A stretch of DNA of 36,869 nucleotides from Synergistaceae bacterium (GTDB taxonomy: Bacteria > Synergistota > Synergistia > Synergistales > Aminobacteriaceae). The notes under the pieces were generated by a model. The model searched no databases, had not been told where the DNA came from, and saw only the letters and a list, made by a program, of their open reading frames with translations. Positions 4,268-35,577 of this stretch are shown here, one piece after another. The position numbers were made by a program, and so were the translations under genes. The stretch lies in NCBI GenBank assembly GCA_017443945.1, contig JAFSXS010000105.1, positions 1 to 36,869 on the forward strand, given 5' to 3'. Numbering within the stretch: position 1 is the first letter of the stretch; every line of letters begins with the position of its first letter.

Positions 4268-4975
4268 ATGAACGAAAAATTTGACTCTCGCAAAGCAATA
4301 ATTACAGGTGCAGGCGTAATAATTTTTCTAATTGTGGGTATGCTCGCTATGTTCTTGATTCCGTCTGACTCTGACTCTAACGCTAATAAATTGCCCGTTC
4401 AGCCTGAAAAAATTTCTGTTCCTGTCTCTGACTCCGTTCCTGTTATAGCAGAAAAAATTTCAACAGTGCCGCAAAAATCTGACTTGTTCATTTACGTTAC
4501 TGGAGCAGTTAATAAACCGGGAGTCTACAAACTTTCAGCAGATTCGCGAATCTTTCAAGCAATCGAAGCCGCCGGGGGTTTCAGCACAAAGGCCGACAAA
4601 GCCTCTATAAATCTCGCAAAAAAATTAATGGACGGGACTCACATTCACGTCGAGCAAAAAGGAGCAGCAAAACCAACACCGCCGCAATTGGTCAATATTC
4701 CGGGAGTCCAAGCAAATAATAACTTAATCGCAATACCGCTCGTCAGCAAACCTGCAAATAATAACAATAACTCAAATAAAAATCTCGTCGACGTAAATAA
4801 GGCCTCAGCAGAAGAATTGCAAAAATTAAACGGTATCGGCCCAGCTCTGGCAAAACGAATAATCGAATACAGGCAAGCTCACGGGAGATTTACTAAACCT
4901 GATGATTTAATACAAGTAAAGGGAATCGGCCCGGCCAAGCTCAAGAAAATGAGAGAACAAATTTTGATTCGCTGA
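4268..4975 (+). CDS. comEA: ComEA-like DNA receptor (SLBB plus helix-hairpin-helix)
   Basis: The 235-aa protein has an N-terminal membrane anchor (about 13-31), a low-complexity linker, an SLBB domain (about 72-132, with YVTGAVNKPGVY) and a C-terminal pair of helix-hairpin-helix motifs (about 172-235, with NGIGPALAKRI and KGIGPAKLKKM). This order is typical of ComEA, the periplasmic double-stranded DNA receptor in natural transformation. It is 6 bp from comEC, the usual partner. No strong ribosome site is visible before the ATG. The linker between the domains is rich in Asn. Confidence 0.92.
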   Translation: MNEKFDSRKAIITGAGVIIFLIVGMLAMFLIPSDSDSNANKLPVQPEKISVPVSDSVPVIAEKISTVPQKSDLFIYVTGAVNKPGVYKLSADSRIFQAIEAAGGFSTKADKASINLAKKLMDGTHIHVEQKGAAKPTPPQLVNIPGVQANNNLIAIPLVSKPANNNNNSNKNLVDVNKASAEELQKLNGIGPALAKRIIEYRQAHGRFTKPDDLIQVKGIGPAKLKKMREQILIR

Positions 4976-4981
4976 TAAAAT

Positions 4982-6367
4982 ATGGAAATTTTACGACGCG
5001 CCCCAATGTTAGCAATTTTAGCAGCGTTGGTGTCAGGTCTTGCGCTTTATGACAAAATCGGCGGAGCAGCATTTATTGTCGCAGTGCCGTTAATTTTTTC
5101 GGGAGTCATGTTTTTATCGTACGAGAATGAATTACCCGGACAATGGAAAATATTTTTTTGCGGGCTTGTTATTGCGCTTATTTGTTCGATTAGGTTATAT
5201 TCTGGAATTTTCCCGCCTCAAATTGAATCGCGCGTAATAAATAATGCTTCGGGAACAGTTGAATCGATTCGCACGTGGGGACGAACTTACATAGCAGTAA
5301 TAAATATTGACAATCATGGCCGATTTATAACGGGACTCCCATTTGCAATATATTTGCCTGGCGACAGAATAAAATTTAACGGAGCTGTCAGACCGCTGAA
5401 AATTTCACGTGATAAAGGCTTTAACGAGGCTCGTTACTGGGGAGCGCGTGATGTAACAGGCTGGGTGAATATGTATGACGTTGAAGAACTGCCGCAAAAA
5501 TTCAGTCTTGCCCTTATGCGTCAAAAAATTTCGCGTTCACTTGGGATTTATGCAACTGACTTGACCGGAAAATATTTAAAAGCTGCTTGGCTGGGTGAAA
5601 GGGTTGACTCATTAAGCAAAGCTCATAGGAAATGGGGCACGAGTCATTTATTAGCGGTCTCAGGCTTTCACGTTGGAATGTTTATTTTGTGCTTGAGTTT
5701 CTTGTTAGGGAAAAATATTTTACTGTTGTCATTATTTATGTGGCTGTACATATTTTTAACTGGGGCTGCTCCGAGTGCGATGCGTGCGGGCTTGATGATT
5801 CAGACAGGATTAATAGCTTTGCTGCTTGGCCGTCCTGTTAGTGCAGTTAATAGTGTGAGTCTTGCGGGAGTAATTTTATTATTGTATTCGCCGTTATATT
5901 TCTGGGATATTGGCTATAGATTATCTGTCTTGAGTGCGCTTGTAATTTGTGCGATTGGGCGTAAAAAATTTATGTGGCTGCTAATAAGTCCTGTTGCTGC
6001 TCTGGTAACTTTTCCGCAAGTTGCTTACACTTTCGGGGGAGTGCCGTTAGTTGGACTTGTGCTGAATTTATTTGCGCCGTTATATTTTGCGTTTGCGTTC
6101 TCGATTGCGTCAGTGTTTGAAATATTGCGTGCGGTTCATGTTCCGTTATCGTTATTTGCGGTTGAAGGAATATTCAAGCTCTGGGAATTTTGCGCGGATT
6201 ACATTGCGGGTCTTATTCCGTACGTAGTTGAATATAATATTTTTATTGCGTGGCTGGGTTCGGGGACGTTTTTATATTTTATTTGCAGATACTTTGATTT
6301 TGCGGTTGCGAGAATATTTGCGGTTATGCTTGTGGGAAGTTTTGCGGCGTTTATGATGTTCTTATAA
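4982..6367 (+). CDS. comEC: Short ComEC/Rec2-family DNA-uptake channel protein
   Basis: The 461-aa membrane protein has the N-terminal soluble domain seen in ComEC (about 60-165) and then the Competence domain (about 195-455) with many membrane helices, including the conserved segment G-T-S-H-L-L-A-V-S-G-F-H-V near residue 220. Full ComEC proteins are usually 700-800 aa and carry a C-terminal metallo-beta-lactamase-like domain thought to degrade the non-transported strand. That domain is absent here: the frame stops cleanly and a convergent gene begins within 22 bp. It follows comEA by 6 bp. It may work with a separate nuclease. Confidence 0.88.
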   Translation: MEILRRAPMLAILAALVSGLALYDKIGGAAFIVAVPLIFSGVMFLSYENELPGQWKIFFCGLVIALICSIRLYSGIFPPQIESRVINNASGTVESIRTWGRTYIAVINIDNHGRFITGLPFAIYLPGDRIKFNGAVRPLKISRDKGFNEARYWGARDVTGWVNMYDVEELPQKFSLALMRQKISRSLGIYATDLTGKYLKAAWLGERVDSLSKAHRKWGTSHLLAVSGFHVGMFILCLSFLLGKNILLLSLFMWLYIFLTGAAPSAMRAGLMIQTGLIALLLGRPVSAVNSVSLAGVILLLYSPLYFWDIGYRLSVLSALVICAIGRKKFMWLLISPVAALVTFPQVAYTFGGVPLVGLVLNLFAPLYFAFAFSIASVFEILRAVHVPLSLFAVEGIFKLWEFCADYIAGLIPYVVEYNIFIAWLGSGTFLYFICRYFDFAVARIFAVMLVGSFAAFMMFL

Positions 6368-23177: not shown

Positions 23178-24518
23178 TCAATTTTCGCGCAAAAGGTTTT
23201 CACCAATTTTATAAACGTCGCCCGCTCCCATAGTAAGCAATAAATCATCAGGCTTTAATACTGACTTGATAAATTTTATGGCGTTATCGAAATTCACGAG
23301 AGTTATAATTTTTTCGCTGTAATTAATTATTTCCTGCGATGAACTGTGTTCGATTTCGTGTTCGCTGGCAGCATAGACCGGCAATAAAAAAATTTCGTCG
23401 GCCAAGTTTAGGGACTCTGCGATTTCATGAGCAAACATTGCAGTCCGTGAAAATCTGTGAGGCTGATACAAAACTATGATTCTTTTTCCGGGATAAATTG
23501 CGCGTACTGCTTTGAGGGTTGCGGCTATTTCTGCGGGGTGATGTGCGTAATCGTCCATTACTAAAATATTATTTGCTGTCTCACCCTTTAATTGCATACG
23601 ACGTTCTGAACCGTGAAAATCTTTGAGAATCCCTGCACTTGTCTCAAAATCTATACCGTTTATGAATGCTGCTGCGATTGCTGCTAAAGAATTTAATATG
23701 TTGTGTTCGCCCGATATTGAAAGCTCAAGAGTCCCGAGTTCGCGTCCATTATGAGAAATTTTGCATTTAACGCCGCCTCCGGGATTATTTACGATGTCAT
23801 ATGCTCCCCAGTCGTAATTTTTTCCCCAGCCGTAACGATAAATATTTTTGCGGTTCCTGCAGGTCTCGAAAACTTTTTTTGCGCCGTTGTCCTCTGCACA
23901 GATTATTAACGAGTCTTTTCTGCCGTCTGAGAATCTCGTGAAAGCCTGTATTACTTCTTCGCGTGTTTTATAGTGGTCTACGTGATCCCAGTCTGCATTT
24001 GTAATTATTGCTGTTGAGGGGTGAAAGAGTTCAAATGTTCCGTCGCTCTCGTCGAGTTCTGCTATAAAAAATTTTCCTGTTCCTGATATTGCGTTGCTGC
24101 CTAAATCGGGGACGTTTGCTCCGATATAAATTGTAGGGTCGAGTCCTGCGCGCTTGAAAATTAGTCCTGTCATTGATGCTGTTGTAGTTTTTCCGTGTGC
24201 GCCTGCTATGCCTATGCCCTGATAATTATTAAATAAATTGCTTAAGGCCTGTGCGCGCGATAAAATTTTTATGCCTTGATTCTGGGCTTCTATTACTTCG
24301 GGGTTGTCATGACTTACGGCGGAACTTAGTATTAAAGCGTCGGGATTATAAATTTTTATGTGATCAGGAGAATGGCCGATTATGTACGGAATATTATCGA
24401 GACTGTAAGATGACTCTTTGAGGTCGCAGCCCGTTACGTTGAGTCCGTGAGCCTTCAAAAGTTTTGCAAGTGCGCTCATACCTGCACCGCCCATACCCAT
24501 GAGGTGAACGTTTGTCAA
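23178..24518 (-). CDS. murC: UDP-N-acetylmuramate--L-alanine ligase
   Basis: The 446-aa protein is a Mur ligase: an N-terminal UDP-binding domain with LMGMGGAGMSALA (6-18), the ATP-binding P-loop GAHGKTTT (106-113), the central L-D-E-S-D-G-T-F (about 156-163) and N-A-D-W-D-H-V-D-H-Y (about 174-183) motifs, and C-terminal D-D-Y-A-H-H-P and Y-Q-P-H-R-F-S-R-T signatures specific to MurC. It adds L-Ala to UDP-MurNAc in the cytoplasm. It is the first gene of the wall/division string that runs to folC. The 404-bp gap upstream probably carries its promoter. Confidence 0.97.
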   Translation of the reverse strand: MTNVHLMGMGGAGMSALAKLLKAHGLNVTGCDLKESSYSLDNIPYIIGHSPDHIKIYNPDALILSSAVSHDNPEVIEAQNQGIKILSRAQALSNLFNNYQGIGIAGAHGKTTTASMTGLIFKRAGLDPTIYIGANVPDLGSNAISGTGKFFIAELDESDGTFELFHPSTAIITNADWDHVDHYKTREEVIQAFTRFSDGRKDSLIICAEDNGAKKVFETCRNRKNIYRYGWGKNYDWGAYDIVNNPGGGVKCKISHNGRELGTLELSISGEHNILNSLAAIAAAFINGIDFETSAGILKDFHGSERRMQLKGETANNILVMDDYAHHPAEIAATLKAVRAIYPGKRIIVLYQPHRFSRTAMFAHEIAESLNLADEIFLLPVYAASEHEIEHSSSQEIINYSEKIITLVNFDNAIKFIKSVLKPDDLLLTMGAGDVYKIGENLLREN

Positions 24519-24922: not shown

Positions 24923-27055
24923 CTAAAAATTTATCAGATCCGGCATTCCTAAATTACCGCTCATATACTCGACAAACTCAGAAATTTTTTCATCGCTTAT
25001 AAACGGTGCCTGCAGTCTTATCGGCAATGGGTAGCCTGCACTCTTGAATAATAAATCGCCTTTTCCCGTGAGTTTCTCTGCGCCGGAGGAGTCAATTATA
25101 TTCTTCGAGTCATCAAGTGATTGCAGAGTAAACGCAGCTCTTGCAGGAATATTAGATTTTATGAGATTCGTAATTGAGTCAGGTGTCTGAGTCGCAATAA
25201 TCATGTGAATCCCTGACGCTCCCGCACGCTGTGAGAGTCTCGTTATTAAATTTTCCGTCTCACTTCCGGCCGAATAAATCAAATCAGCAATTTCGTTAAT
25301 AATTATCACGATAAGCGGCAATTTTTCATTAGTGTCAATCCGGTTATAAGCTGTAATATTTCTGACTTTGGCCTGTGAAAATTTTTCTATGCGCGACTCC
25401 ATTTCGTGAAGTGCAAAATTTAAAGCCTTTAACACCGTCTGAACATCATAAACCGGAGCTGACATCATGTGTGATAAATTTTCATATACTGCAAAATCTG
25501 TCTGTCTCGTGTCAATCATCAAAAATTTTACTTCATCAGGTTTACGCTTTGAACATATGCCAAGAACGCAGGAATTTATAAAAACGCTCTTCCCCGCTCC
25601 TGAATTACCAGCAATTAAAATATTAGGCATTACTTCGAGTCCCTGCACAAAAATTTCGCCGTTAATCTTGCACCCAAGCGGAAGAGTCAATTTTGATGGC
25701 GAGCTTCTGAACTCGTCGGAGTCAATTATATTTCTCAGCGGGATAATTTTTCTTTCCTGCGCAGGAACTTCAACACCGGCATAATGAGTCCCCCATATGG
25801 GCGCTTCGATTCTTACGGGCATTACAGCAAGAGACATAGCTAAATCGTTCGTTAATTCGAGGATTCTATTAACTTTTGTGCCCGGTGCGAGTTCTAATTG
25901 ATATTGAGTTACGGCAGCACCATTTATTATATGAGCTACAGAGGCATTTACACCAAAATTTTTTAACGCTGAAATTATTTGTTTGCCCTGTTTCTCAAGT
26001 GATTTCAATAAATTTTTGTCGGACGCATTTACGATTCTAGGGCCGTAAATTTCATAAGGAGGCGGAAAAATTTGCACACCTTCTGACTCAGTGCTTGAGT
26101 CTTTAACAGGTTCGGGCGTTAATGGCGATTCGTCCTGCAAAATATTCGGAAGCGGCCGCCGGAATCGTTTTTGTCTCGTAATGGGCTGCTTTTTTTCGGG
26201 AGCTGACATTTCGCCGGATTTGATTGACGTTATTAGATTGTCGAAAATATTTATTGAGCGTTTAAACGGGCTGTCGTCGGGTTTAGGTTCCTGCGCTGGT
26301 TCGGGCTTGCCTGAATTTTTCAAGACGGGTGCGGGAATGTTCATTGACTCAATTTCTGCGTGTGCGTTCAAAGCTGTAATTAACGGCGACGGATCAGAAA
26401 ACTGCATAGTCTCATCAAAGCTGTCATTTTTCTTGAATTTCGGCGAGGGAATCTTTGTCGGGAATAAAACATTTTCCGGCCTGTCTTCGAGATAAGTTGC
26501 TTCATCGTCATTGCTTGGCCTTCTGCGTGATTTATTTCGTCTTGGTAAATTAATAGAGTTCAACGCAGGCATAGAAATTTTTAGAATCCTTGATCCAAAC
26601 AAAAACGCTGTCAACACAAACGAGGCAATTACTAATAAAAGCGTGATGAACGGGCCGAAATTTACAGTGAAGAATCGCGCAAGACCATGACCGAATCCCC
26701 CCGGTTGAAATAATGTCCAGTCCGAACGCCAGCCGGTTTCACGCAATAAGCCCAGCATAAACGAGAAAGAAATATATAATTGAAGCGTTCCTAAAATTTG
26801 ACGCTGGACTCTAGGGACACGAAATTTCAATAATTTAGCAATGCACAAGTAAAATATAAATAATAACGGGACAATCAACGCGCCGCCCCATGAATCACGT
26901 AAATATTTCCCCCATTCGCGCCCGCCTTCGCCCGTAAATGAACTGTCAAATAACGCTAATATGCAGTAAAAGCAAAATATTATCAGCACAAATAATAACA
27001 GCTCGCCTAAATTGCCCTGATTCCTGTTTCTTGTTTTATTATTTCGACGCGGCAA
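24923..27055 (-). CDS. ftsK: FtsK/SpoIIIE-like DNA translocase lacking a gamma domain
   Basis: The 710-aa protein has four N-terminal membrane helices (about 17-35, 58-75, 90-105, 134-158), a charged Pro-rich linker (160-330) and an alpha/beta motor (about 335-690) with Walker A GNSGAGKS (483-490), the A-T-Q-T-P-D-S-I-T-N-L-I-K-S-N-I-P-A-R segment (621-639) and G-A-E-K-L-T-G-K-G-D-L-L (658-669). Two oddities: the Walker B aspartate is Asn587 (IIINEIADL), and the protein stops right after the motor, without the DNA-reading gamma winged helix of standard FtsK. It may be a divergent chromosome translocase or a specialised paralogue. It is the last gene of the operon, 27 bp after mltG. Confidence 0.88.
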   Translation of the reverse strand: MPRRNNKTRNRNQGNLGELLLFVLIIFCFYCILALFDSSFTGEGGREWGKYLRDSWGGALIVPLLFIFYLCIAKLLKFRVPRVQRQILGTLQLYISFSFMLGLLRETGWRSDWTLFQPGGFGHGLARFFTVNFGPFITLLLVIASFVLTAFLFGSRILKISMPALNSINLPRRNKSRRRPSNDDEATYLEDRPENVLFPTKIPSPKFKKNDSFDETMQFSDPSPLITALNAHAEIESMNIPAPVLKNSGKPEPAQEPKPDDSPFKRSINIFDNLITSIKSGEMSAPEKKQPITRQKRFRRPLPNILQDESPLTPEPVKDSSTESEGVQIFPPPYEIYGPRIVNASDKNLLKSLEKQGKQIISALKNFGVNASVAHIINGAAVTQYQLELAPGTKVNRILELTNDLAMSLAVMPVRIEAPIWGTHYAGVEVPAQERKIIPLRNIIDSDEFRSSPSKLTLPLGCKINGEIFVQGLEVMPNILIAGNSGAGKSVFINSCVLGICSKRKPDEVKFLMIDTRQTDFAVYENLSHMMSAPVYDVQTVLKALNFALHEMESRIEKFSQAKVRNITAYNRIDTNEKLPLIVIIINEIADLIYSAGSETENLITRLSQRAGASGIHMIIATQTPDSITNLIKSNIPARAAFTLQSLDDSKNIIDSSGAEKLTGKGDLLFKSAGYPLPIRLQAPFISDEKISEFVEYMSGNLGMPDLINF

Positions 27056-27082
27056 ATATATTCACTCCCATTTACAATAAAT

Positions 27083-28189
27083 TTATTTTTCTGATCGCGC
27101 AAGTTTTATATTCCGCCGGTGTTCGTTGAAGGTCTTAGAAAAATAGTGATAGCCGTCTTTTCTTGCTACGTAATAATAATAATTATTTTCTTCGGGTTCA
27201 AGTGCAGCACCCCACGCAGCAGAGCCGGGTATACAAATAGGCTTAGGAGGCAGACCCGAAATTTTATAAGTGTTATAGGGCGAGTCAATTTCCAAATCTT
27301 TATTTAGTACGCGCGTTACTTTCCTTCCTGCGAGCCTCCATGCATACACAACAGTAGCGTCAATTTGCAGAGCCATGTTAGATTTTATTCTGTTGTTGAT
27401 TACGCCTGAAACTGTGCGGCATTCTGAATCATGCAAGACTTCACGTTCAATCATTGAAGCAATTATTGCAGCGTCGACCAATTGACTCGAAGTTAATTTT
27501 TTCGCGTTGATTAAGTCTCCGCGCTGTCTCCACCATGCAGTAGAAGCAGCTTGTACGGCCTCATCGGGTGTCCTGTTGATTAACATGTAAGTCTCTGGCT
27601 CAAGAAATGCTAATCTCGTGTACTCATCGTCGGGAATTGATTTAATTAACTCCTGCATTTCATCGGGATAATTTGAGTCGGTCAATAATGCACGAGTAAA
27701 ATTTGTCATGTTAAATTTGCTGTCTTGATCCTCTAAATTTTCGGCGAGTGCAAAAATATCGAGTCCCGGTAAAATTTGCAGCTTCAGTAATGCAGGCTTG
27801 ATGATTCGTAACTGTCTGGCCAAGTTCCAAGGGTCAGAAGGAACAACTGAATAATGACCGGCTCTAATTTTTTTGTCGATTCCAAATTTTGCAAGCCAAC
27901 GCGCTAATTGAGAAGGAGACCCCGATGACAACGCACCCTGAATCTCGAAAGCTCTTGCGGCCTGAAGTGCTGTCATTCCGCTTGAAATAGTAACGCTGAC
28001 TGTATCGCCGTCCGGTAATGGTATAATGCCTTCCCAAAAATTAGCGGGTACTTTGTAATAATACGAGAAAACTGCTCCGGCTATGACTGCCCATAGAAGC
28101 AGGAAAAATATTAAGCTGATCCCTAAAAGTTTAGGCTTTCGGCGTTTACGTTGATTATGTGATTTAATTTTCTGCAAGTTGCTGCACAT
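27083..28189 (-). CDS. mltG: Endolytic murein transglycosylase MltG
   Basis: The 368-aa protein has a basic N-terminus, one membrane helix (about 21-44), a LysM-like part (about 62-125) and the YceG/MltG catalytic domain. The expected catalytic Glu248 lies in A-S-M-I-E-R-E, followed by V-I-N-N-R-I-K-S-N-M-A-L-Q-I-D-A-T and S-P-Y-N-T-Y-K-I-S-G-L-P-P-x-P-I, both strong family markers. It cuts nascent glycan strands at the membrane, setting strand length. The gene follows the small pseudopilin gene by 38 bp. The ATG has little ribosome-site sequence, and a TTG four codons later with AGGATG upstream is an alternative start. Confidence 0.94.
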   Translation of the reverse strand: MCSNLQKIKSHNQRKRRKPKLLGISLIFFLLLWAVIAGAVFSYYYKVPANFWEGIIPLPDGDTVSVTISSGMTALQAARAFEIQGALSSGSPSQLARWLAKFGIDKKIRAGHYSVVPSDPWNLARQLRIIKPALLKLQILPGLDIFALAENLEDQDSKFNMTNFTRALLTDSNYPDEMQELIKSIPDDEYTRLAFLEPETYMLINRTPDEAVQAASTAWWRQRGDLINAKKLTSSQLVDAAIIASMIEREVLHDSECRTVSGVINNRIKSNMALQIDATVVYAWRLAGRKVTRVLNKDLEIDSPYNTYKISGLPPKPICIPGSAAWGAALEPEENNYYYYVARKDGYHYFSKTFNEHRRNIKLARSEK

Positions 28190-28227
28190 CCTGTAATAGT
28201 TTTGAGCTTATTATAGCAAGTTAATTA

Positions 28228-28683
28228 TTAATCGTTCGCTGTTTCTTCCGCGCCTATCGTAGAGTTTGCAGAAAGTCTCGCCCTACCGTCAGAACTTATT
28301 ACGACATAATATATACTTTCGTCGGATCCGGTTATTTTTATGCTGCCTGTTTTATTGAAGGTCTGATTAACACTGTATATAAATTCTTCTGATTCGTATT
28401 TACAGCCGGGAGTTGCGTTCAAAATTTCGACGGTTTTATCTTCCCATGTAAGATCAATAGAATAATTGCCGCCGCTTTTTTTAGCAATGAACGAAAAAGT
28501 TTGCTTCATTCTGTCAGATTTCTGAATCTGCCTATTAAGCCATGTTACGACTTTTTCTGCCTCGCGTTGTGCTGTCTGATTCGTTAATTTCAGGTTCAAC
28601 ACTGCAACAACGCCGACTCCTGCTAATATTGCACTTGCTATGATTAATTCTATCATTGTGAAGGCTTTACGCTTAAATTGCAT
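28228..28683 (-). CDS. Type IV pseudopilin, GspH/PilE-like
   Basis: The 151-aa protein has a short basic leader and then A-F-T-M-I-E-L-I-I-A, the type III signal cut by prepilin peptidase. Cleavage would fall before Phe8, with Ala instead of Gly at -1, which is known to be tolerated. Glu at +5 is present, as in pilins that assemble normally. One long hydrophobic helix (8-30) precedes a small beta domain. AAAGGAGG precedes the ATG, and the start overlaps the pilMN gene by 11 bp. It may be a minor pilin of a type IV pilus, type II secretion or competence pseudopilus. Confidence 0.88.
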   Translation of the reverse strand: MQFKRKAFTMIELIIASAILAGVGVVAVLNLKLTNQTAQREAEKVVTWLNRQIQKSDRMKQTFSFIAKKSGGNYSIDLTWEDKTVEILNATPGCKYESEEFIYSVNQTFNKTGSIKITGSDESIYYVVISSDGRARLSANSTIGAEETAND

Positions 28684-30058
28684 TATAGAAATCCTCCTTT
28701 AGTGTAAGAATTATGCTGAATACAACTAGATTATTTTCTGATAATGAAGTACCCGGAATAATTACGCTTTCAAATAGTCCGCTTGCTTGAAGTCCCTCAC
28801 TCATCAAACTTAATGACGTACCGTCGGAGGCTGTGCCATTTATAGTTACGACAAAATGAGACTCTTTCCTGCTGAAATCTGCGTCTAATAATTTTATGCC
28901 TGTGCCTGCGTTTGCTTCGAGTGCGTTCAAGACCTCCAAAATCGGTATGTCATCGCGAAGAAAATTTAAAATTTGTTCTGTCTGAGCTTTATTTTGTGAT
29001 AGTGCTGCATTATTTCTCATGATTTCGGAGCGTTTTGCTTGAAGTTCTGCTATAACTTCATGATTATGATCGATTGCGTCCTGTACTATCTCCATGCGTG
29101 AAATAGCAAATAAAATAGTTCCCATCGATAAAATAACAAAGCATGACGACAACAATATCAAAGCTACCCGGCTTAGGTTCAGAGAGTTTTTGCGTCTCTC
29201 GAATGCAATATATTCGGGCGGTCTCAAGTCCATTATATAGGCGTCATCGGGGTCTCTCATTGCCAGTCCGCGAGCTTTATAAAATTTGCTGGAGAAATTT
29301 ACGACTTCTAAATCAGTGCTTGAAGTTATATTCAAATTTACGTCCGCGAGAATTAATTTATTTATCTTGACGCGCTTATATTGAGTCTCTACAAATTGCA
29401 ATGTGCTGCGAATGTCGTTAAAGCTGTTGGCGTTGTCTGCTGTCCTGAAGAAAATTCCGTGTCCTTCCCATGTCGTTACAATGTTGCGTCTGTCTGCAAA
29501 TATGCAAAGTCCTTCGCGGTCTTCAGGAATTGCGCGGAGCATGGCAAAATTTGCGGGTTCGATTGCACCGAGTACGATATTTATTTTATTAGCGATGTCA
29601 ATTAAGTTGTCGATATAATTTCTCTTTACGGCAGCGGCAAGAACGGTTATATTATCCCGATTGCGTGATGCTGAAGGAGTGTCAATTATTACTGCGTCAA
29701 AAACGGCTTCTGAACTCGGAAATGGGAAATTTTCCTCAAGATTGAGCGCTAACGAGCTTTTTATGTCGTCGAGACTCATATTAGGAAAATTCAGCGGCCT
29801 GATAATTACATCACCCGAAGGAACGCCGAGCATTATAGGAACAGAAATTTTACCGGTCTCCTGTATTAGCTGCACAAAACCTTTTTCGAGCATGTTAAAA
29901 TCTTTAATGGAATTACTAGCTACACAGCCGTCTTCTAATGGGATTCTGAACTCTCTAAAATCTTCGCCGTTTTCGTCAAGCTCAATATATCCGAGACTGT
30001 CATTACGGATTGCGAGTCCTGCTGTTAAATTAGGCTTTATCGCATGAAATAATCTCAT
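28673..30058 (-). CDS. PilM-PilN fusion protein
   Basis: The 461-aa protein joins an actin-like PilM domain (about 1-235; segments VPIMLGVPSGDVIIRPLNFP at 53-72 region and L-A-L-N-L-E-E-N-F-P-F) to a PilN domain (about 245-461) that begins with a short D-L-R-P-P-E-Y stretch like the PilN membrane-proximal peptide, then a membrane helix (about 272-296), a coiled coil and a ferredoxin-like periplasmic domain. In most type IV pilus systems these are separate proteins that bind each other through the PilN N-terminus. The gene overlaps the nuclease-pseudopilin gene by 4 bp and the pseudopilin gene by 11 bp. No pilO or pilQ follows. Confidence 0.82.
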   Translation of the reverse strand: MRLFHAIKPNLTAGLAIRNDSLGYIELDENGEDFREFRIPLEDGCVASNSIKDFNMLEKGFVQLIQETGKISVPIMLGVPSGDVIIRPLNFPNMSLDDIKSSLALNLEENFPFPSSEAVFDAVIIDTPSASRNRDNITVLAAAVKRNYIDNLIDIANKINIVLGAIEPANFAMLRAIPEDREGLCIFADRRNIVTTWEGHGIFFRTADNANSFNDIRSTLQFVETQYKRVKINKLILADVNLNITSSTDLEVVNFSSKFYKARGLAMRDPDDAYIMDLRPPEYIAFERRKNSLNLSRVALILLSSCFVILSMGTILFAISRMEIVQDAIDHNHEVIAELQAKRSEIMRNNAALSQNKAQTEQILNFLRDDIPILEVLNALEANAGTGIKLLDADFSRKESHFVVTINGTASDGTSLSLMSEGLQASGLFESVIIPGTSLSENNLVVFSIILTLKEDFYNAI

Positions 30059-31404
30059 TTATACCACACTTCTTCATGAAAAATTGTAGTCTTGGCCGTG
30101 TCATTGCTTACGACTTCTTGAATCATCAAGTAATTATTATCATTCACTGGAGCATAAGCCCTTAATAAATATTTACCCGGCATTGCTGGAAAAATGCGCT
30201 CATATACTTTTTGGCTTGTATATTTTTCCTCGTTAAAATCTTCGCCGAAAGAATAATCTAAATTATGAATATCAAGTGTTACAAGATTTTGTGTATGAGT
30301 GAAATATTTGCCTCCCTTGCTGTTATCTCTGAATGTATTGTAATAAATATTTCCGGTCTTGTTAGGGACTGACGACAAATGCTCTTTGCCGTATCTGATC
30401 ATATCTTGAAGACTTAGTCTGAGACTCATAATTTCGCGTTCTTCAGCTAGAGAGTCAACCGATTGCAGCGAGTAAAAAAATATTTGCGCCGTTACAAGCA
30501 CTGCCAGCAGAGAAAAAATTAACACGCCCAAAAGTGAAGCTCCCCGCCTTGCCTTGAACGTCTTAAATTTTACTGCTCTATCCTGCGCGCACGTAGGTTT
30601 ATATTTGCATTCCGAACACAATTTTTTATCGCCCCTTATATCAGGAAATTTTTTACACTTCAGCGAAATAACCTGCCAGACCGTAAAAAATAAATCCGGC
30701 AAATTTGATTTTATCATTGCTGCTACGCTTGAGGAATCGAAAATATCAGGCTCTATATTGTTCTCATCGAGATAAATTATTTCTATTGACGGCGTTATAC
30801 CAGTTTTCTTATTAATCAGCCACGCATAAACGAGACTCTGTGCAAGCGGTACGGTTATATCACTCTTGTTATAGCCTTTGAACTCGAATAATCTAGCTTC
30901 GGCCTTGTCGGGATTGAATAATAAAGCGTCATAACGTCCGGTAATAATTAAATTTCCTTCGTCCATATTATAAACGCTCTGTAAAATTTGTTCGGGCTTG
31001 ATGAAGACTTTATCAGGAGATTTTATTTCCCGGAAAAATTCGGACATTGCTTTAACCCAGACTTTAACGCCTGAAGCCATAGCTAATAACTGCCCCGACG
31101 TAAAATTTTCTGAATTTAACGCAGCAAACGGAATAAAAAATTTTTCGCGCACAAGAGACTCTAATTTTTCAGGACTGCCGAATGAATTAATAATTTCTTT
31201 GTGAAGCGGGTTAAACTCGTTATAAGCAGCCTCAAAAAATGCCTGCGATATGTTCTTGTGAAAAATTGAGCCGTAATAATCTTTACCCTTAATGCCTACT
31301 GACCACGCAGATTTTTCGCGCCTGTGCAATTTATAAGCAAGAAGGGCCGGACACCTTTGACACAACGCTATATCACTGACTGTAACAAAACAAGTATTAG
31401 ACAT
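30055..31404 (-). CDS. Cas4/RecB-type nuclease fused to a type IV pseudopilin
   Basis: Residues 1-280 form a PD-(D/E)XK nuclease of the Cas4/RecB family: His49, Asp159 (GRYDALL), Glu174-x-Lys176 (FEFK) and Gln189-x3-Tyr193 are all in place, with cysteines at 15/18 and 263, 266, 272 that could hold an iron-sulfur cluster. Residues 284-449 form a prepilin: A-R-R-G288 then A-S-L-L-G-V-L-I and a long hydrophobic helix, so prepilin peptidase could cut after Gly288. Residue +5 is Gly, not Glu, as in GspK-like tip pseudopilins. No stop or canonical start separates the parts. It begins 6 bp after the ATPase gene and overlaps the pilMN gene by 4 bp. The function is unknown; see findings. Confidence 0.8.
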   Translation of the reverse strand: MSNTCFVTVSDIALCQRCPALLAYKLHRREKSAWSVGIKGKDYYGSIFHKNISQAFFEAAYNEFNPLHKEIINSFGSPEKLESLVREKFFIPFAALNSENFTSGQLLAMASGVKVWVKAMSEFFREIKSPDKVFIKPEQILQSVYNMDEGNLIITGRYDALLFNPDKAEARLFEFKGYNKSDITVPLAQSLVYAWLINKKTGITPSIEIIYLDENNIEPDIFDSSSVAAMIKSNLPDLFFTVWQVISLKCKKFPDIRGDKKLCSECKYKPTCAQDRAVKFKTFKARRGASLLGVLIFSLLAVLVTAQIFFYSLQSVDSLAEEREIMSLRLSLQDMIRYGKEHLSSVPNKTGNIYYNTFRDNSKGGKYFTHTQNLVTLDIHNLDYSFGEDFNEEKYTSQKVYERIFPAMPGKYLLRAYAPVNDNNYLMIQEVVSNDTAKTTIFHEEVWYK

Positions 31405-31410
31405 GATAAA

Positions 31411-33348
31411 TTATTTCCTGTCAGCCATAGAAATTAATGTATCGTCCTTTGACGGAAAGAGCCGAAATTTATTATTTGCCCTCACAAAGTCAAGAAGTTC
31501 ACCGGCCGAAATTTTTTGATTTTTCGAGTCTAACATTTCAGCGGCCTTTGCTGTGCTGATTATCTTCATGGGGGACGCGTTTATTATCTCGATTAAAGAA
31601 TTTTCCAGACTCGGAGATACTGCCGGGACTCTGGCTTTTACTGGCGAGACAGTAATTAATTTGAGACTCTTGACGAAATTTTTTATGTCATTGCGTGTTG
31701 CTGCTCTAGGCTTTGACTCAGAATAAATATTTACGTCGCCGTTATCGACTCTGTTAATTAAAGCTGCGAGTCCGTACCATTGAACGCGGGAGTCTTTGTC
31801 GAGCAATAAAACTTTTCCGCCCGAGTCAATAAATTCCTGCATTATTTCATTTGCCTGCTTCCAAGTTTTTTTGTGAATCTTGGTCTCCGAAATATAGAAG
31901 CACTGACAATCATTTGACATCGCGATACCCTGTTTAAGCGCATTACATGTCGACTGATGAAATTTACTGGTTACGATAAAGAACGCAAATTTTTTATCGT
32001 TATAAATTGCTGTAATCTTCAAGTGTTTGCTATTATCTTGCGCGACCTCGAATCCATCCAATGAAGACAGCCACACACCTAGAGACAACGCGAGCAAATC
32101 TGCATTTGGCGGCCAAGCTCTATAATCACCGCGAATTTTTTTGCACTCATCATCGTAAACGCCTTTAATAGTCTTGTAAATTTCTGAGTCTGACCCGTTA
32201 TTATTAATTGCCGGAGTCTGGCCTTGATTCGCTGCCGGAGCTGGTGAGTCATCCTTAAAAATTGCACGGTTAGCAAGCTCTATGACCATTCTAGGGGAGC
32301 AGCCTTGATTCAATTTCACGCGTTCTATGAGCCATTGATAAATTTGTTCCTGATTCTCGTTAAATGCAAAGTCGATTCTATCGCGTATTAATTGCTTGGC
32401 CTGAGTTAATGAACATTCGCCCATTACGATTTTATGATGTTCGAGCCTCTGATATACTGACGAATTTAAAGACGGTTTTATTTTATCGTTCCAAATCTGG
32501 GACTTCATGAAACATAGCGGCAAAATTCCTACAAGATTATCAGTCAATAAATGAATTATATTCCCCCATGCCTCAATTAATTCTTTGTTGACGCTCATAT
32601 AATCTAACTGGTCAAAGCATACGATCATAGGTACATGGGCATAAGCGAGCAGTAATCCCAGAGAGATTAAAATTTTTTCTGCGTTGCTTTCTTTCTTTGC
32701 GTCGGTCATTGAGTCAATATCGCGAGGGGGCAGGCCTAAATTTACTGCGTCTTCGTCGTCGAGTCCTTCTCTGAGCCATTCGAGAATCAAAGCGCGTTTA
32801 TTCTCGTCTTTAGTGTCAGCATAGAGCAAAATACATTTCAGCACGTTTTTATCAAGTCCGGGAATATCGCGTGATAAATAAATTTTTGTGTCAACCTTTG
32901 CAAGATCCGTGAATCCGTCATTTTGTCTGTGCTCGTGATAAGAATTTATGATTTCATTGACTAATAAATCAAATTGCGACATGTTAGAGCTATGAAATTG
33001 CATGAGGCTTATAAAAATTTCTGACAATAAATCCTGTGTTACGCTTTCAGGGTCTCTGAATGCCCGTACAGTTACGAAAATTGCCGGTCTTGAATTAGTT
33101 TTCAATCGGCGCAAAATTCTTGTCAGCATGTGAGTCTTCCCTGAGCCTGCCTCACCGAGAATCAATCCTACTAACGGCATAGAAGGTTCACGGCGTTTGT
33201 GTCTGATTAACTGTTCGATTTCTTCAGAAGCTGACCTATTTAACTGCTGTAAATCGGGATTCATATTTTCCCACGGCATAGGCGACGCTGACGATTCGAA
33301 CGGGTTATTTTCTCTAAGCTGCTTGACAATCGAGTTATTATCTGACAT
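31411..33348 (-). CDS. AAA+ ATPase with C-terminal winged-helix-like end
   Basis: The 645-aa protein has an AAA+ module (about 30-365): Walker A GEAGSGKT (65-72), Walker B M-I-V-C-F-D-Q-L-D (241-249) with Gln where Glu is usual, and G-C-S-P-R-M-V-I-E-L-A-N (349-360) like the lid/sensor-2 region of ORC/Cdc6- or TniB-type ATPases. A linker rich in Asn follows, then an alpha/beta domain (about 400-560) that I do not recognise, and a C-terminal winged-helix-like segment (about 580-645). The ATG at 33348 is preferred over an upstream TTG at 33387. The start overlaps the upstream winged-helix gene by 11 bp. DNA-loading or conflict-system ATPases are the closest themes. Confidence 0.75.
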   Translation of the reverse strand: MSDNNSIVKQLRENNPFESSASPMPWENMNPDLQQLNRSASEEIEQLIRHKRREPSMPLVGLILGEAGSGKTHMLTRILRRLKTNSRPAIFVTVRAFRDPESVTQDLLSEIFISLMQFHSSNMSQFDLLVNEIINSYHEHRQNDGFTDLAKVDTKIYLSRDIPGLDKNVLKCILLYADTKDENKRALILEWLREGLDDEDAVNLGLPPRDIDSMTDAKKESNAEKILISLGLLLAYAHVPMIVCFDQLDYMSVNKELIEAWGNIIHLLTDNLVGILPLCFMKSQIWNDKIKPSLNSSVYQRLEHHKIVMGECSLTQAKQLIRDRIDFAFNENQEQIYQWLIERVKLNQGCSPRMVIELANRAIFKDDSPAPAANQGQTPAINNNGSDSEIYKTIKGVYDDECKKIRGDYRAWPPNADLLALSLGVWLSSLDGFEVAQDNSKHLKITAIYNDKKFAFFIVTSKFHQSTCNALKQGIAMSNDCQCFYISETKIHKKTWKQANEIMQEFIDSGGKVLLLDKDSRVQWYGLAALINRVDNGDVNIYSESKPRAATRNDIKNFVKSLKLITVSPVKARVPAVSPSLENSLIEIINASPMKIISTAKAAEMLDSKNQKISAGELLDFVRANNKFRLFPSKDDTLISMADRK

Positions 33349-34090
33349 TTTTTGTAACCGTTCCCATTCTGTAATTATTCTCGTCAATGAAGGAGTCTTT
33401 TACTTCGTCGGGACTCATTGTAGACTCGTCGGCGATATGAAGTTGTATTAACTCTTTGTCGCGCAGCATCATTAATATTGCGTCAAATAGATCTCTCGGC
33501 CAGTTTAATTTTTTGCGGAGGTCGCAGATTCTCACAAAGACTCGCCCGTTGTCAAGACTCTCGAATGCCCGCATAAATTCTTCCCGGCTGTAATCGGTTG
33601 AAGGAGTGCTAATTTTTTCGGGTTCTGGTTCGGATTCAGGCTCAATTTTTGCAGGTTGAGTCTTTATTGCCGGAGTGTCAGTCAAATAGATTCGTGCGTC
33701 TAAGTTGTCATTGATGATAATTTTTGCGCGGCCGGACTCGACAAAAGAGTTAATAATTTTTGCGACATCAGATTTAGAAAACGGCAATGAACGTGCGATC
33801 CATTTTGCTGATTTGATTTTCGCGTTATTGATTTCTGCGATAACTAAATCTTCGGGCTCGCAGGGTTGAAGAATGTAAAGTGTCGGGCCTTTCTTGTGAA
33901 AAATGAATTTGTCCATCACGAGGGGCTCTAAAATTTTGCGGATTTCTGCGGCGGTCATTTGCGTGTTTATGCCTGTCAGGCGTTTAGCTTCTGCTCCCAT
34001 TACTACAGCTAAATTTTTTACTGTCATGAACGGGCGTTTATTCTTGCTTAATATTTCCTGAACAATATCGGGAATGTCATTAATAGTCAT
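33338..34090 (-). CDS. Multi-winged-helix protein, first gene of the nuclease/pilus operon
   Basis: The 250-aa protein appears to hold two N-terminal winged-helix domains (about 1-75 and 78-135), a Pro/Glu-rich linker (140-163) and a third winged-helix-like domain (about 165-225). I do not recognise the family. DNA binding is inferred from fold only. GAAAGGAG precedes the ATG by a typical distance. The last 11 bp overlap the ATPase gene, so the two proteins are likely made in fixed proportion and could form a complex. It opens a run of seven same-strand genes ending with the ftsK-like gene. It could be a regulator or a DNA-bridging subunit. Confidence 0.65.
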   Translation of the reverse strand: MTINDIPDIVQEILSKNKRPFMTVKNLAVVMGAEAKRLTGINTQMTAAEIRKILEPLVMDKFIFHKKGPTLYILQPCEPEDLVIAEINNAKIKSAKWIARSLPFSKSDVAKIINSFVESGRAKIIINDNLDARIYLTDTPAIKTQPAKIEPESEPEPEKISTPSTDYSREEFMRAFESLDNGRVFVRICDLRKKLNWPRDLFDAILMMLRDKELIQLHIADESTMSPDEVKDSFIDENNYRMGTVTKNVR

Positions 34091-34440
34091 TTATGAAAAA
34101 TTTTCTCCTTTCAAGTTAAAATTTTATATAATACACGAGCTTATAATCATTACGTCCGGGCAAGCTGCACAGTTAAATAATCACTCCTTCTGTGAAAAAC
34201 GTAAAAATTTCTGCAATCTTATAGCATGTTATCATAATTATGTAAAAAGGTGCGATAAATATTTTATGATTCGCGATAAAATAAAACACTTTCGAAAAAC
34301 TATGACAAAATATTTTTGTTGAGCTATTAAATTTGTTGTATGTGTGCGGCCTGTTATAAATGCATGTTTCCGAAAGACTTTATAGCAATATTACATAAAT
34401 GTGAGCTATTATAAATTACGTAGTGGACAGGAAAAAGTTT

Positions 34441-34470
34441 TTGCAAATATTCGAATGCGACTGTTATAAT
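34441..34470 (+). promoter_or_regulatory. Promoter-like module with conserved spacer, copy D
   Basis: TTGCAA (34441-34446), an 18-bp spacer and TATAAT (34465-34470) form a good sigma-70 promoter. The spacer (ATATTCGAATG...) closely resembles that of copy C at 34857-34886, so a regulator may bind between the boxes. No gene starts nearby on this strand; the transcript could be the long leader of the gene at 34933 or a small RNA. Confidence 0.5.
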
Positions 34471-34643: not shown

Positions 34644-34790
34644 AATTAATTTTTCGCAGTTATGATAATCCTTCACACAAAAATTTTATTTCTTTATCAT
34701 GCAATTAATTTATTGTGCTATAGTGAAAACATTTTTTAATCTATCAAGTAAAGTCAAAATCGAAAATATTTTCATACATAATCACGTAAA

Positions 34791-34827
34791 GTTTTTACAG
34801 CTTATCAAGTGCATTTACTATTATAAT
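34791..34827 (+). promoter_or_regulatory. Promoter-like module, copy B
   Basis: TTTACA (34794-34799) is followed by TATCAAGTGCATTTACTA and TATAAT at 34822-34827. The boxes are spaced 22 bp apart (19 to the alternative TATTAT), which is long. The central part matches copy A at 7698-7731. Confidence 0.35.
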
Positions 34828-34856
34828 AATAAAATAGATAACTAACGAAAAAATTT

Positions 34857-34886
34857 TTGCAAATATTCAAGTGTATTTGTTATAGT
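34857..34886 (+). promoter_or_regulatory. Promoter module, copy C, of the gene at 34933
   Basis: TTGCAA (34857-34862), an 18-bp spacer and TATAGT (34881-34886) lie 47 bp before the ATG at 34933. The spacing and most spacer bases match copy D. An extended -10 (TGCTATACT, 34895-34903) offers a second possible start. Confidence 0.55.
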
Positions 34887-34932
34887 GTTTAGTGTGCTAT
34901 ACTTGATTGATTCATTAGGAGGAGGCGTAAAT

Positions 34933-35577
34933 ATGCCCAGAAAACAGAACGAGAAATATACAATACAAGAACAGCTTAAACCGCGAACAATAATGACAGC
35001 ACAGGAGCTTTTAAACGCAATTTCCGAGACTGAATATCCTGATTACGTGCTTGAAATTATTGCAATAGTACGCGAATGGATGAATAATTCTCTTGAGGCT
35101 CCGGACAATAATTACAACGGGCAGAATGCTTTTGACGCTATATTGAGCCAATTTTTTGACGAGGAAGCTATGGGAGTCATGAATCTTTATGAGAGCTTGA
35201 ACAAATTTGAAGACATCGCAGACCTTATACCCGGACACAAACGCCCCGAAGGAAAGCCGGATACTATTGTAGTGAGCGTTAATCCTCCCGACTGTGAGAA
35301 CGGTTTTAGAGTCGCCGTAGATTATGCAACAGTTTTTAACAGGCCGAAATGCAATAGAATCTGGATAATTTCGAATACTTACATATACGACGATATTATA
35401 AGATTTGCTCCTCACGTTGACGCACTCGCAGCACAAGGAATTAAAATACGCTTTATTCTCGTAAATGCATGGGGATGGGTTGAGCTGCCCTTAAGCGCAA
35501 AGACTGCCACAAAGAAGCAATTTATATTAAACACTGAAGAGCCGCCCAAACGTACACGAAGAAGGAAAATAATTTAA
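34933..35577 (+). CDS. Protein of unknown function, 214 aa
   Basis: I do not recognise this protein. The ATG at 34933 has AGGAGGAGG about 7 bases upstream; an earlier in-frame GTG at 34885 has none. The sequence has no signal peptide or membrane helix. An N-terminal helical, acidic half (about 1-95) leads to an alpha/beta half (about 105-195) with strands DTIVVSVNP, FRVAVDYATV, RIWIISNT and IRFILVNAWGW, followed by a basic tail (P-K-R-T-R-R-R-K). The basic tail could contact nucleic acid. It stands alone between a repeat-rich promoter region and a terminator, suggesting separate, possibly regulated expression. Confidence 0.7.
   Translation: MPRKQNEKYTIQEQLKPRTIMTAQELLNAISETEYPDYVLEIIAIVREWMNNSLEAPDNNYNGQNAFDAILSQFFDEEAMGVMNLYESLNKFEDIADLIPGHKRPEGKPDTIVVSVNPPDCENGFRVAVDYATVFNRPKCNRIWIISNTYIYDDIIRFAPHVDALAAQGIKIRFILVNAWGWVELPLSAKTATKKQFILNTEEPPKRTRRRKII

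Follow-up and report, generated by a model that had tools for sequence, protein, structure and literature searches.

The closest described counterparts of the locus analysed here are the "HerA/FtsK capture" anti-invader systems, which were predicted computationally by Rakesh, Aravind, Krishnan 2024 (PMC10853773), and whose theme is restated in a follow-up paper (PMC12839542). These systems are built around an Orc/Cdc6 ATPase in which an inactive restriction endonuclease (REase) domain always lies between the AAA+ module and a C-terminal winged-helix (wHTH) domain (PMC10853773). They further contain an active REase from one of two described families and an FtsK, one set of them with FtsK-alpha, and in some of them a protein with two to four wHTHs is found (PMC10853773). 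Among pilus-related proteins, PulL has been described as a PilM-PilN fusion (PMC10191384). The locus described below joins a module that resembles the former to pilus and cell-wall genes in a single operon.

The window, by which we mean the whole stretch of 36,869 nucleotides that was analysed, is a single contig (G000:C105) from a draft genome of 2.4 Mb (completeness about 96%), whose near relatives are Synergistaceae/Synergistales and Fretibacterium, mostly MAGs from the ruminant gut. Its minus strand carries seven overlapping or closely spaced genes, with open reading frames and coordinates as a sequence-only reading had given them and gaps of -11 to +38 bp. The operon begins with a triple wHTH protein of 250 aa (33338..34090), followed by an Orc/Cdc6-type AAA+ ATPase of 645 aa (31411..33348) and a Cas4-like Fe-S PD-(D/E)XK nuclease fused in frame to a minor pseudopilin (30055..31404; nuclease approximately aa 1-280, pilin approximately aa 285-449). 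Behind this triad come a PilM-PilN fusion protein of 461 aa with PilM_2 and PilN domains (28673..30058), a ComGE-like pseudopilin of 151 aa with an N-terminal methylation motif (28228..28683; N_methyl, TIGR02532), the endolytic transglycosylase MltG (27083..28189; YceG E=2e-58) and a cell-division FtsK with a degenerate motor (24923..27055; FtsK_alpha and FtsK_SpoIIIE). Read 5' to 3', the gaps are -11 bp between the wHTH and ATPase genes, +6 bp from ATPase to nuclease, -4 bp from nuclease to PilM-PilN, -11 bp from PilM-PilN to pseudopilin, +38 bp from pseudopilin to MltG and +27 bp from MltG to FtsK. On the same strand MurC (23178..24518; Mur_ligase domains) begins a downstream murC-murB-ftsQ-ftsA-ftsZ block, the order of which is shared with relatives and shows the dcw location of the operon.

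The gene order is kept by homologues in dozens of species, and dN/dS values of about 0.13-0.17 between near relatives indicate purifying selection; the arrangement is therefore not due to chance. Across the operon, 6 terminator-like sites were found against 8.9 expected by chance, none of them convincing, and a terminator separating the triad from the pil genes was rejected because such sites are at or below chance. The AT-rich gap upstream of the operon holds three imperfect direct repeats of 34-38 nt with 65-82% identity (34431-34468, 34788-34821 and 34847-34884), which end in -10-like TTATAAT/TTATAGT and are possibly repeated promoters. Beyond them, positions 34885-35577 encode a 230-aa protein that has no Pfam match and is conserved in 42 of the 46 genomes searched across the order.

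An AlphaFold2 model of the wHTH protein (pLDDT 81) resolves three wHTH units, at approximately residues 6-74, 79-136 and 169-247. Its Foldseek matches are tandem-wHTH proteins with low TM-scores throughout, and searches of Pfam, PADLOC and NCBIfam gave no match. Direct kinship with the domains of DndG, SspB or FokI was considered and set aside, as these were not recovered by Foldseek and TM-scores were low. In relatives the gene lies directly upstream of the ATPase gene almost everywhere. The ATPase model (pLDDT 85.7) comprises an AAA+ region (approximately 38-364), a domain of alpha-beta-beta-beta-alpha-beta topology (approximately 416-516) and a C-terminal wHTH (approximately 579-641). Both model and alignment identify the inserted domain as REase-like and lacking the D/E-x-K motif, and hence catalytically empty. 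Foldseek ranked Cdc6/ORC folds at the top (best E ~1e-5, TM up to 0.48 by target); further down its list were EcoT38I, a restriction enzyme, and VC1899. Domain searches returned AAA_22/KAP-like matches and the ORC1-type NF001624 (E=7e-4), and a profile of the ATPase compared with PDB sequences found nothing. Membership of a known defence family was also rejected, PADLOC and NCBIfam giving only weak P-loop matches (Avs2, mad8).

The nuclease matches PDDEXK_1 (E=2e-7), and the H, D, E-x-K and QxxxY motifs together with four cysteines are intact in 31 of the 34 homologues scored. It falls below the Cas4 cut-offs, with 13.7 bits against 65 for TIGR00372 and 16.1 against 22.7 for Pfam Cas_Cas4. In the sister genera and in a Planctomycete (L116) the nuclease runs on into an FtsK-alpha domain and an FtsK motor, and the Walker motifs are intact in the nuclease-fused motors checked from sister genera. 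In PADLOC this FtsK part best matches SspH and mad8. The genus of the window, by contrast, has no HerA/FtsK motor belonging to the module: its nuclease is without the FtsK part and a minor pilin stands in its place. In Fretibacterium fastidiosum (L103:8252-12288) an in-frame fusion links the ATPase to the FtsK part by way of a cysteine-poor nuclease remnant. This is a natural loss of the nuclease in which ATPase and motor have been retained.

Of 43 genomes in the window's genus, 39 encode the ATPase, one of them only as a fragment, as do about 16 genomes of other genera in the family, while in the remaining families of the phylum there was nothing beyond chance-level matches. Where the triad occurs its order is wHTH, ATPase, nuclease; the nuclease usually follows the nearly invariant first pair. 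Other phyla also have the triad or its core, which is present in termite-gut Planctomycetaceae (L114-L116, L119 and L120, with L116 complete), in a Methanomicrobiales archaeon (L117, two genes), in a Deltaproteobacterium (L121) and in many Cyanobacteria (L122-L147). This conservation inside and outside the genus bears out the sequence-only reading of the first three genes as a coherent module of DNA-processing or conflict type. The cyanobacterial loci (for example L137:8281-12335) encode a wHTH protein of about 226 aa and an ATPase of about 620 aa, followed by a DUF1802 protein; its Mrr-like "ECK" nuclease core replaces the Cas4-like nuclease. Most loci with sufficient flanking sequence have the three genes side by side, and their surroundings are ordinary genes. 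No functional literature on DUF1802 was found in our search, which returned only an unrelated paper. Exchange of the nuclease while the wHTH-ATPase pair stays constant would be expected of a modular DNA-targeting system. Viral contigs held no relatives of the ATPase or the wHTH protein, and plasmids gave five weak cyanobacterial matches with one query and none with another, so that carriage of the triad by mobile elements was rejected; no defence island was seen around it. Large genes lie inside or beside several triads of termite-gut Synergistaceae (L111:1283-2791, L113:3794-5284, L109:11215-12792 and L111:5630-7042), one of them with a weak DUF6880 match, and possibly represent an accessory component.

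The nuclease and pilin of the window are joined at RRG/ASLL, a basic leader ending in glycine that is followed by a hydrophobic stretch (RRG/ASLLGVLIFSLLAV) without glutamate at position 5. Within the genus, 16 genomes have the two as one open reading frame and 11 as separate genes. On the tree, at least six changes between the fused and split states are required, some of which could be assembly indels, and clustering of the states is no greater than with shuffled labels. Since the two forms interchange, tethering of the nuclease to the pilin is not required. The free interchange fits removal of the nuclease as a giant leader by a prepilin peptidase, for which two Peptidase_A24 matches in the genome are candidates.

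The association with pilus genes is specific to the window's genus. None of ten sister-genus triad loci adjoins pil genes. Elsewhere in the order, across its other genera and families, the usual pilus operon toward the secretin and efp contains pilM, pilN and the next genes, mltG and ftsK stand together at a second locus, and the triad is found at yet another. MltG and FtsK form an ancestral pair within the family. Other genera encode PilM and PilN by two adjacent genes, which are fused in the window. Within the genus, the pilin, PilM::PilN and pseudopilin genes precede mltG-ftsK-murC, with the triad in front; in 18 of 27 genomes a divergent rsmH, part of the division cluster's other half, is found upstream. 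We assign the pilin to the pilus side, since in a sister genus a similar one sits shortly before pilM. The pilus parts themselves are genuine, as the first reading had supposed: PilB, PilT, PilC, a secretin by efp and the prepilin peptidases are encoded at other loci of the same genome. The three separate ancestral loci and the lack of any link in the sister genera show that the mixture arose by juxtaposition in the ancestor of the genus. For the suggestion that triad and pilus genes form one machine, the survey of relatives thus cuts both ways, the triad lying away from pil genes in sister genera and the link being fixed within the genus, with no convincing terminator between them in the window.

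Two further elements of that suggestion concern the division FtsK and ComEC. The gene that had been taken for a DNA pump (24923-27055) encodes a divisome FtsK in which the Walker B aspartate is replaced by asparagine and the gamma domain is absent. No gamma domain was detected in the genus's single divisome FtsK in the two examined; across the genus (L031-L067) the Walker lysine is often arginine and the Walker B aspartate mostly asparagine or serine, only G035 being intact among those compared. FtsK of the sister genera is intact and includes the gamma domain. On these grounds the operon FtsK was rejected as the triad's own motor. With a dN/dS of about 0.17 (window pair) it remains under purifying selection, so its role in membrane and division probably persists. 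ComEA and a nuclease-less ComEC are indeed present in the window (4268-6367; ComEC 4982-6367), as had been pointed out, but the short ComEC has no value as a clue to uptake. All across the order ComEC is approximately 460-600 aa long and has no nuclease domain; this is therefore an old trait, unrelated to the operon and no evidence for a special uptake machine. For the same reason the nuclease was rejected as a substitute for the missing ComEC domain. Of the earlier interpretation, the DNA-processing module and the pilus parts stand, while the pump and the ComEC clue are not supported.

We consider it somewhat probable that the triad is an anti-invader module, restriction-like and of the Orc/Cdc6-coupled "HerA/FtsK capture" type, that was transplanted into a pil-dcw operon. 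We infer a defence function from the architecture and the swapping of nucleases. The triple-wHTH protein and the Orc/Cdc6-iREase-wHTH ATPase would probably recognise and encircle target DNA, after which cleavage or resection by the Fe-S Cas4-like nuclease would be licensed by ATP hydrolysis; ancestrally, the nuclease's own FtsK-alpha/FtsK motor would reel in the DNA. In the ancestor of this rumen and gut Synergistaceae genus, the module is proposed to have moved in front of a pilin-pilM::pilN segment adjoining mltG-ftsK-murC; the nuclease lost its FtsK part, and the triad would now be expressed as one operon with the pil, mltG and ftsK genes. With the FtsK part lost, the nuclease would act motor-less or with another motor. 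Fusion to the pilin is probably tolerated, either because a prepilin peptidase would cut behind RRG and free the nuclease, or because the pilin may also be translated separately. Against the defence reading counts that the triad is near-universal in the genus, stably chromosomal and without viral relatives, which is unusual for a defence system. The missing defence island and the standing of the capture systems as predictions weigh against it too, and the lack of the defining FtsK part in the window copy counts against its assignment to the capture systems.

The same distribution could reflect a housekeeping complex for DNA repair or chromosome processing, with an Orc-like loader, a resecting nuclease and an FtsK motor, inherited vertically and co-expressed with division genes rather than serving defence. 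The presence of the ATPase in nearly all genomes of the genus, the location of most triads in the dcw cluster beside rsmH-ftsL-ftsI-murE-murF, the absence from viral contigs and the ordinary surroundings of the cyanobacterial loci are all in keeping with such a role. Yet no other family of the phylum has the triad, some genomes have secondarily lost it (a fragment is left in G024), the nuclease has been exchanged for another type between clades and in one case lost, and the architectures nearest to it in the literature are those of predicted conflict systems. We regard a housekeeping role as unlikely. How the module relates to its neighbours is a separate matter, and here the balance is even as to whether it simply landed before the pil-mltG-ftsK-murC operon and shares its transcript with no functional coupling, an account of the link only that is compatible with the anti-invader reading. 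The three ancestral loci, the pil genes without an intact triad in G024, G036, G018 and G038, the separation of triad and PilMN in G013 and the interchangeable fusion state all accord with it. It explains less readily why, in species whose ATPases are about 45-55% identical, the inner junction has survived longer than the two outer ones. The junction of nuclease/pilin with PilMN is kept in the window and in 22 of 23 evaluable relatives, G013 being the exception, whereas the upstream junction has changed in eight relatives and the window and that toward MltG in three; the link persists also in genomes rearranged on both outer sides.

This persistence, the repeated in-frame fusion and the presence in the genome of a type IV pilus (T4P) core, prepilin peptidase and ComEA/ComEC are what speaks for the original idea that the pilin holds the nuclease at the T4P or competence machine, to process or screen DNA entering via the pilus. 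The idea is nevertheless improbable in our view: outside the genus, whether in its sister genera or in further phyla, the module has no pilus link; the nuclease and pilin switch between fused and split states; ComEC is short across the whole order; and a search of the draft genome did not recover DprA. A long shot, slightly less probable again, is that a capture-type restriction nuclease was turned into an oversized, cleavable minor-pilin leader, and would be brought to or held at the T4P/DNA-uptake machine to inspect or resect incoming DNA. Functional coupling of the triad to DNA uptake is a possible but hypothetical reading.

For a defence class known only from prediction, these loci provide a wide and independent comparative base in Synergistaceae, Planctomycetes, an archaeon and Cyanobacteria, and they add the Cas4-like and DUF1802 nucleases as partners of capture-type systems. 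The window's genus also offers a natural experiment, as a lineage in which a motor-less module has merged into a pilus operon and fused and split nuclease-pilins can be compared. Should nuclease and pilus cooperate, immunity would be directly linked to DNA import; if the nuclease is a pilin leader, the coupling would be physical.

The operon can be set beside several known systems. The PilM::PilN fusion recalls PulL of the GspL/PulL type, while compared with the T4P inner-membrane complex of PilM, PilN and minor pilins the genes lie outside the ancestral pilMNOPQ operon and the minor pilin bears a nuclease instead of a short leader. With Cas4/AddB-type Fe-S nucleases the nuclease shares the RecB-family motifs and an arrangement of one N-terminal and three C-terminal cysteines, but the profile match is weak (E ~1e-3 to 1e-2) and there is no CRISPR context. 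The FtsK/HerA motor, the P-loop protein and the multi-wHTH logic are reminiscent of DndFGH/SspFGH, SspH being the best PADLOC match of the FtsK part; however, no DndF or DndG homologue was found by profile and a Cas4-like nuclease is present instead. The likeness to the capture systems extends to the Orc/Cdc6 AAA+ module, the inactive REase before the C-terminal wHTH and the separate multi-wHTH protein, and, in sister genera and a Planctomycete only, to an FtsK with FtsK-alpha. The active-looking PD-(D/E)XK nuclease of the triad is a candidate counterpart of their active REase. The triad differs from the capture systems in a Cas4-like nuclease with Fe-S cysteines, neither Cas4 nor RecB being named in the main text of PMC10853773, in being vertical and chromosomal rather than mobile, and, in the window's genus, in lacking the FtsK part and being linked or fused to pilus genes. 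The sister-genus triads fit the description of the capture systems closely; the window copy lacks their FtsK feature, and we therefore describe it as a derived variant rather than a full member.
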